From positions 1-64,000 of the forward strand of contig NZ_JASISR010000005.1 in the NCBI RefSeq assembly GCF_030063245.1: a DNA stretch of 64,000 bases, in the 5' to 3' direction. Position numbers and translations under genes: made by a program. Under the pieces are notes generated by a model, which saw only the letters and a program-made list of their open reading frames with translations, made no database searches and had not been told where the DNA came from. The DNA is from Paenarthrobacter sp. PH39-S1 (GTDB taxonomy: Bacteria; Actinomycetota; Actinomycetes; Actinomycetales; Micrococcaceae). Below, one piece after another: positions 49,519 through 50,331 of this stretch; position 1 is the first letter of the stretch, and the number at the start of each line of letters is the position of its first letter.

Positions 49519-49536
49519 CAACCTTTATCGGTTGAT

Positions 49537-50331
49537 ATGAATGGAACGACGACGGCGACAGATGGTTTGGTTTACGGCATCCGGCTTCGGCGGGAGGTCG
49601 AGTACCGTTACGTCGGGATCACGACCAAGACGGTCAGCCGTCGGTTCCACCAGCATCTCCGTGTTGCAGCCGAGGGCCGCAAAACACCGTTCTATGACTG
49701 GCTCCGGAAGCAGGATCTTTCCCAAGTCATCGCAGATGAATTGGATTGGATCGAAGGCCTATTGGAACTCGGTCAGGCAGAAATTGACTGGATCAGTTAT
49801 CTGCGGAGAGAAGGGGATCGCCTGCTGAACCTCTCCGAGGGAGGCCTTGGTCCCACCGGTGTCGTCTGGACGGAAGTGCAGCGTGAAGCTGCCCGGATCA
49901 GGAACACCGGTCGTAAGGGACTTAGCCGTCCAGGCGCAGAGAACCCGTTTTATGGCGGCAAACATAGTCTGGAGCAGCGCAGGAAGTGGGCAGGCGACCG
50001 CAAAGGAACGAATTCCGGTCCGCACAACCCGAACTTTGGGAAATTTGGTCCAGACCACCCCGGGTACGGGCATGTGATGTCCGAAGAGTCTCGCAAGGTG
50101 CTTTCCGAGGCCAGGAGGGGTGCCAAGAACCCCAACTATGGAAAGGTTCCTTCTGCAGAAACCCGGGCGAAACAGTCAGCGGCCCAAAAGGGGCAGCCGA
50201 AGCCTTCGAGCCAACGTAGCGCCCACACCAGACATCACACTAACAAAGGCGTCGAGAAAGCCGACTGCAGGTTCTGCGTCGAAGACTCAGCCAAACCTAG
50301 TCTCTCTTCAGAAAGTGAGTCGGAGTCATGA
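49537..50331 (+). CDS. GIY-YIG homing endonuclease-like protein with NUMOD3 repeats
   Basis: 264 residues. The GIY-YIG domain shows VYGI (12-15) and YVGI (25-28), Arg35/Arg36 and the catalytic-type Glu82 in [23 protein letters not shown]. Then come DNA-binding NUMOD3-type repeats built on NPxYG(G)KH and [14 protein letters not shown], at about 135-150, 164-180 and 198-215 ([17 protein letters not shown]). This is the architecture of free-standing phage and intron homing endonucleases. It separates nrdE and nrdF, overlaps the nrdF ATG by four bases, has no clear ribosome binding site and is visibly less GC-rich than its neighbours, all signs of acquisition. Whether it cuts an nrd target is inferred. 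Confidence 0.88.

Follow-up and report, generated by a model that had tools for sequence, protein, structure and literature searches.

A putative free-standing GIY-YIG homing endonuclease gene behind nrdE in Actinobacteria and large phages, and the altered nrdE tails that accompany it

Free-standing homing endonucleases have been best studied in phages (PMC2988022). This paper and PMC3653736, PMC3984707, PMC10448857 and PMC1564403, all cited here from extracts, dealt with homing endonuclease genes (HEGs) at phage nrd genes and with nrd introns and inteins, and they mentioned bacterial free-standing GIY-YIG reading frames in general terms. Our search of part of the open-access literature brought up no report of a chromosomal HEG family linked to nrdE. 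Among the described systems, MobE of phage T4 and MobE and Hef from the nrdA-nrdB region of phage Aeh1 were, like the gene studied here, free-standing endonuclease genes at reductase subunit genes (PMC2988022, PMC3653736). According to the same extracts, T4 mobE also had a translational overlap, as our gene did, and the Aeh1 MobE gene split nrdA. T4 MobE was listed as an HNH enzyme with nrdB as its target (PMC2988022, Table 1), whereas our gene encoded a GIY-YIG protein, the reductase belonged to class Ib, both subunit genes were whole and the inferred target was nrdE. Thus, the parallel with T4 mobE that an earlier note on this DNA had drawn was sound for the presence of an HEG at nrd genes and wrong for the kind of enzyme.

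The T4 Seg family (e.g., SegF) was similar in other respects, namely a GIY-YIG enzyme without an intron, a position beside the target gene and mobility with co-conversion (PMC2988022; for intronless homing, PMC3984707; both in extract). However, the Seg genes were phage genes, while the HEG behind nrdE occupied one fixed site in actinobacterial chromosomes, its target was inferred and the altered host tail that came with it changed amino acids. I-TevI and other intron endonucleases with GIY-YIG and NUMOD3 shared the catalytic fold and the NUMOD3 repeats but, unlike them, our gene had no intron. Group I introns of nrdE and nrdF in Bacillus and phages favoured the same host genes, with phages suggested as carriers in the extract of PMC3984707. 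In contrast to our gene, which sat between genes, these introns interrupted a gene and were spliced.

The window, i.e., the whole stretch of 64,000 nt that was analysed, was part of a draft genome of 4.65 Mb (G000, contig C91), in which no second copy of the HEG was found at E 0.001. Its nrd operon had the order nrdH (46504-46749), nrdI, nrdE, HEG, nrdF. The nrdE gene for the large subunit of class Ib ribonucleotide reductase (47320-49518, plus strand) was a complete reading frame of 732 aa ending with TGA and matched positions 2-698 of the 698 in TIGR04170. The nrdF gene for the small subunit (50328-51302, plus strand) was complete with 324 aa and matched NF010573 (NCBIfam) end to end. Since both genes spanned full NCBIfam models, neither of them was interrupted. 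A group I intron or an intein at the HEG was rejected, given the complete neighbours and an Rfam search that showed none (two miRNA matches were far below threshold), and the gene was indeed free-standing between nrdE and nrdF as first described. It occupied 49537-50331 on the plus strand and encoded 264 aa between an ATG at 49537 and a TGA at 50329-50331. The interval of 49519-50331 originally assigned to it contained this real reading frame but began too early, at the codon that follows the nrdE stop.

The gap that separates the nrdE stop from the HEG contained a small inverted repeat, CAACC-TTTATC-GGTTG (49519-49534, plus strand; hairpin of -5.6 kcal/mol). A structured RNA at this place was considered and rejected, the short piece of the window having z -1.54 (15 of 200 shuffles were as good) and the longer piece z -0.20. 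The idea that translation passes the nrdE TGA and continues into the HEG was rejected as well: the two genes were in frame in the window, and since this agreement was lost in relatives such as L005, it looked like chance. At the other end the HEG stop and the nrdF start overlapped in ATGA.

The HEG protein contained NUMOD3 (PF07460, 9.7e-16), with two stretches above the Pfam gathering score, the better of which covered residues 178-214 (50068-50178, plus strand). The GIY-YIG catalytic core (residues 12-55; 49570-49701, plus strand) scored 18.4 bits in Pfam, below the gathering score of 22.6. When 34 sequences were aligned, the motif columns G10, Y13, Y25, G27 and R36 were invariant, and G14 as well as E82 and N98, just downstream of the core, were nearly so. 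The AlphaFold model had a mean pLDDT of 67.7 and a pTM of 0.39, with about 85-90 in the catalytic part, and its best Foldseek match in the PDB was the catalytic domain of I-TevI (E 0.034, probability 1.00; none at E 0.001). A sequence search of the PDB gave a single match up to E 1, the DNA-binding part of I-TevI (1i3j, E 0.076). Judged by the motif Arg, Glu and Asn residues and the I-TevI-like fold of the model, the protein is a GIY-YIG homing endonuclease with predicted cleavage activity, as the original domain assignment had anticipated. No HNH domain was matched among Pfam families with E up to 1, and TIGR01453 reached 32.4 bits, below its NCBIfam cut-off of 56.05. A conserved C-terminal segment, HTRHHTN...CxxC (residues 230-247; 50224-50277, plus strand), consisted of near-invariant alignment columns; by eye it resembled a zinc knuckle and it may bind metal. 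The dN/dS of the HEG was 0.04-0.26 in 12 chosen pairs, which indicated purifying selection.

In all 40 relatives retrieved from genome contigs, the HEG was found directly behind the nrdE stop. The genera concerned were Arthrobacter and its kin, Sinomonas, Glaciibacter, Nocardia, Gordonia, Rhodococcus and Mycolicibacterium, and large phages had the gene too. In Arthrobacter, Pseudarthrobacter, Sinomonas, Gordonia, Rhodococcus and others nrdF came next after the HEG. In Nocardia and Mycolicibacterium the HEG stood right behind nrdE even though nrdF lay several kb off or was missing from the locus. This spoke against the nrdE-nrdF junction as the target, which had been the original proposal; since the recoding in Nocardia was again in the nrdE tail, the likely target was the 3' end of nrdE.

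A survey of the family gave matches in 34 of 395 genomes at E 0.001, namely 26 long copies, three with only the last ~35 residues (G202, G239 and G355) and five that were weak only. An even draw of the class yielded the HEG in 5 of 394 genomes (E 1e-10), and the family of G784 in 11 of 301 when fragments were counted too (E 1e-20). The gene was therefore uncommon in the family (26/395) and in the class (5/394), as had been supposed, although it recurred across several actinobacterial genera and large phages. The family draw comprised 387 nrdE-bearing genomes, and 109 junctions were compared here. Close relatives of the window differed in presence: of the five genomes of its genus, the HEG was present in that of the window and in G002 and absent from G001, G003 and G004, whose empty nrdE-nrdF spacers were 92-148 nt long. 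Plasmids were rejected as a vehicle, since none of 72,556 plasmid records matched at E 1e-10. A second nrdE-like gene lay on contig C45 of G004 (L078, L079), along with another fragment that had a different tail; no nrdF was adjacent in the stretches read.

The presence of the HEG was associated with the end of NrdE. The tail EGCVSCML occurred at 65 of 79 empty sites and in one of 54 intact carriers, where intact meant a reading frame of 235-275 codons and one of the 54 (L041) was frameshifted in its C-terminal half. The variant tails of intact carriers were EN..ML (38), EG..AL (10) and five others, and CVSC was kept in all tails listed. In the set from the window's family, taken to be Micrococcaceae from named relatives, a tail other than EGCVSCML was found in 31/31 intact carriers vs 10/73 empty loci (independent pairs 12.1 to 0.0, median p 0.0005), a carrier count that omitted two broken copies, L035 with a variant and L013 with the standard tail. 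Thus an intact HEG was accompanied by an altered but complete nrdE tail. Three of four broken copies kept variant tails, and L013, whose HEG had an early stop, had the standard one; remnants were left out of the tail counts, and three of the four had a variant and one a standard tail. This rule was formed after the tails had been looked at. Variant tails were present in 8/9 Nocardia carriers (broken L043 included) vs 4/27 empty sites and in 4/4 Gordonia carriers vs 5/26, where 8/9 Nocardia and 2/4 Gordonia carriers had already been in the rule-forming set and the empty sites compared were new. One intact Nocardia carrier (L029) kept EGCVSCML, with TAV for TEV upstream. A further sample, from which 16 loci were set aside as duplicates, gave a variant tail in 11/11 new carriers vs 9/53 empty sites; the eleven took in two loci of g36, two contigs from phages and an environmental one, without controls of matching lineage, so that just six (L230, L243, L244, L245, L262 and L274) belonged to the family of Nocardia and Gordonia.

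The tail was rejected as a universal carrier mark by genus g36 (family f4), where 6/6 carriers and 25/25 empty sites differed from EGCVSCML; since all of its empty sites varied, the rule carried no information there. In this genus (L283-L312) the residues before CVSC (LEM, MSE, LDM, VDG and others) varied strongly between species, unlike in Micrococcaceae. The drop in tail identity relative to the nearest empty relative was significant in Nocardia (p 9.6e-5) and not in Gordonia (p 0.32, four carriers) or g36 (p 0.28). The Nocardia carrier L025, for example, was 99.4% identical to the empty L211 upstream, but over the final 36 nt of nrdE the identity was 69.4%. In Gordonia, the sole difference by eye between carrier L255 and empty L256 in the last 45 nt was GGG to AAA, three adjacent nucleotides. 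Changes between N-type and A-type tails numbered 6 on the HEG tree and 10 on the nrdE tree, compared to a mean of 11.8 and a minimum of 8 in 300 shuffles on the HEG tree. The fact that several different alterations (EN, EG..AL, DS, DL, DG) affected the same standard tail suggested selection against the standard sequence, more than hitchhiking.

We regard it as highly probable that the gene is a mobile free-standing GIY-YIG HEG specific for the nrdE 3' end, which would home together with a co-transferred cut-resistant tail. As read from the sequences compared, the final codons of nrdE are the most likely target; in the window the corresponding stretch is 49483-49515 on the plus strand, where EN replaces EG, and it would be the target in empty relatives and a cut-resistant allele in the window. 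The enzyme would cut the stretch coding for the conserved ...EGCVSCML tail in HEG-free genomes, and repair would copy the donor stretch, i.e., the recoded nrdE tail and the HEG, in place of the native spacer. In many Micrococcaceae copies, this stretch would also bring the overlap of the HEG with a recoded nrdF start. With the converted tail NrdE would stay complete but no longer be a target, and the carrier would be immune. Where nrdF follows, the last codons of the HEG (50278-50331 in the window, plus strand) probably serve as its translation start region. This had a parallel in the T4 HEGs that displaced transcription starts, so that promoters of downstream genes were inside the HEG (PMC2988022, in extract). 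Phages may be the route between hosts.

Cleave-and-rescue or home-and-rescue drives destroy an essential stretch and bring along a working copy of it that resists cutting. A stronger version of the homing reading, which we hold only tentatively, is that the HEG would be such a home-and-rescue drive on essential nrdE, its clades being paired with different resistant tails, and would circulate between chromosomes and large nrd phages. If so, its pressure would have changed the residues beside CVSC in ribonucleotide reductase, perhaps as far as the highly variable tails of g36. This HEG family sat at a fixed site in the chromosomes of several genera of actinobacteria as well as in phages; filled and empty alleles were found in close relatives, copies were intact or decayed, and there were scars and host-gene variants that matched. 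The family thus offered a ready system for testing how selfish nucleases persist in bacteria, how immunity of their own allele arises and whether phages ferry them. Additionally, variation at the NrdE C-terminus may reflect a parasite and not the function of the enzyme.

Large Arthrobacter phages encoded nrdHIEF, and one of the four compared had the HEG. This was Talia1610, with the order nrdH-nrdI-nrdE-GIY-YIG-nrdF; its gp111, the start of which was annotated inside the end of nrdE, was homologous to the HEG protein of the window (33% identical) and had the same position. The HEG was absent from Racecar and Mimi, with NrdE identities of 99.4%, and from Atuin (89.9%). Between Talia1610 and Racecar, nrdE was 97-100% identical per 100 nt beyond 200 nt from its end and 75/100 in the last 100 nt, a 90-nt spacer was replaced and nrdF differed along the ~900 nt compared. 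By these comparisons the two represent a filled and an empty allele, the flank having been exchanged. Unlike at the bacterial locus, the tail residues of Talia1610 were the same as in the empty Racecar and Mimi, and its tail differed from that of Racecar in nucleotides only. Relatives of the HEG were found on seven viral contigs, in five of them directly behind nrdE (L201-L205; L203 and L204 were near-copies). With 158 kb and 37 kb, respectively, L203 and L205 look like phage, and L201 and L202 (about 5 kb, nrdE 81% and 74%) may be chromosomal. Two other viral contigs, L206 and L207, had HEG relatives elsewhere than at nrdE, with two matches per contig. Similarly, the Gordonia phages GodonK (L112) and GMA2 (L111) had HEG relatives at other sites, in GodonK beside a reductase small-subunit gene.

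These phage copies, including those on L203 and L205, could also fit a nuclease of phage defence or phage competition, where the chromosomal copy would cut the class Ib nrdE of phages and the phage copy that of hosts or rivals. This explanation seemed improbable to us, although it survived better than the other two that we considered, since phage and bacterial HEG proteins were just 33-45% identical and the nrdE tails of Talia1610, L203 and L205 differed from EGCVSCML, the sequence expected to be cut under the homing reading.

Further evidence for homing came from the flanks. Of 119 loci, ten for which the ungapped comparison with the window failed were excluded (L016, L017, L018, L033, L034, L040, L041, L110, L156 and L160), which left 33 carriers, 73 empty loci and three remnants. 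The nrdE bodies of the window and the empty G004 were 94.5% identical vs 15/25 in the last 25 nt, where DNA of the G004 type has GAGGGCTGTGTCAGC; the nrdF bodies were 94.4% identical vs 17/25 in the first 25 nt. The two carriers of the genus had the nrdF start ATGACCGAAAAAGTAAAGCT in common, while its three empty members had ATGACTCAGCGAGTC. Compared with their nearest empty relatives, the 33 carriers were 78.5% identical in the last 36 nt of nrdE (body 95.5%) and 76.5% in the first 24 nt of nrdF (body 93.2%). The corresponding values for the 73 empty loci were 86.1% (95.3%) and 89.4% (92.5%). In carriers, the excess of mismatches lay in roughly nine codons at the end of nrdE and eight at the start of nrdF. 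These tracts of about 25-35 nt per side were very short, which counted against homing. The motif AAA[AG]T in the nrdF head, recoded in the window as in many carriers, was present in 24/33 carriers vs 0/73 empty loci (independent pairs 9.5 to 0.0, p 0.002), and two control stretches within nrdE and nrdF showed no association with the presence of the HEG. Low GC of the tail was rejected as a carrier mark, not being significant in independent pairs (p 0.69).

The spacer was affected as well. The hairpin-type ACGACG/ACGTCG within 150 nt upstream of nrdF occurred in 48/73 empty junctions vs 0/33 carriers, so that the element replaced the native spacer and did not merely sit in it; the empty spacer of G004 formed a strong GC-rich hairpin (z -2.98). 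An inverted repeat like that of the window after the nrdE stop was found in 19/33 HEG-bearing vs 4/73 empty junctions. Six empty Arthrobacter-type junctions (L119, L122-L125 and L128) kept or nearly kept the TCAACC...GGTTGA repeat, four by pattern (L122, L123, L125, L128) and two by eye (L119, L124). These repeats are possible scars of lost HEGs, and L128 had kept the EN tail too. The spread by gene conversion that the earlier note had proposed was consistent with these conversion-like footprints on both flanks, seen in sequences and not in a cross and, in Gordonia and g36, weakly.

Alternatively, the gene might move when the nrd region undergoes ordinary homologous recombination, or hitchhike on phage exchange. 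This alone would also yield recoded flanks without any nrdE-specific cutting, the tails being passengers, and the difference between Talia1610 and Racecar that ran through nrdF would fit it. We gave this explanation little credence: the excess mismatches of bacteria were confined to those short tracts, the replacement of one standard tail by EN, EG..AL, DS, DL and DG was hard to explain for passengers, and the catalytic residues were conserved.

The history of the HEG was partly one of transfer between lineages. On the nrdE tree of 109 loci, there were at least 22 changes of state in HEG presence (17 forced by supported branches), compared to a mean of 30.4 for shuffled presence, with 1 of 500 shuffles as low. 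Presence was thus patchy but also clustered. The window and L035 were sisters by nrdE (99% aa identity over the compared part), a pair that was picked from this comparison; as HEG sisters they were rejected (log-likelihood 65 lower, p-AU 0.00084), in line with the non-vertical phylogeny that had been anticipated. An eight-locus HEG clade, picked after inspection of the tree, was likewise rejected by the nrdE data (p-AU 1.5e-7). The HEG and nrdE trees agreed largely at the family level, and together with the clustered presence this indicated that part of the history was vertical.

Decayed copies were found, namely L035 with a frameshift, L013 with its early stop and the remnants G202, G239 and G355, in which the end of the HEG persisted up to the nrdF start. 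This persistence fitted a role of the HEG end in nrdF expression, and such a double function would hinder clean loss and leave scars. In L035 (4001-5767) the frameshifted HEG opened into the nrdF frame and gave a fusion ORF of 588 codons, either real or an assembly error. Domestication as an operon gene (e.g., an nrd regulator or processing nuclease) with vertical inheritance and losses would agree with the constant position behind nrdE in 40/40 relatives, the overlap or close spacing with nrdF where present, the purifying selection, the clustering and the family-level agreement of trees, but was the least credible of the explanations in view of the 22 or more state changes, the rejected HEG pairing of two near-identical operons, the broken copies and remnants, and the recoded flanks tied to HEG presence.

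Other genes of the window lay downstream of the nrd operon. Right after nrdF there was a Phd/YefM-like antitoxin gene (51406-51861, plus strand; PF02604, 29.5 bits, just below the cut-off of 29.8), followed by an ORF of 111 aa without a Pfam match (51865-52200, plus strand), and the two possibly form a toxin-antitoxin pair. Further on, a weakly matching FitA-like ribbon-helix-helix protein, below the cut-off (53400-53660, plus strand), and a PIN-domain protein (53651-54061, plus strand; PF01850, 5.6e-12) are, by their domain matches, a VapBC/FitAB-type pair.
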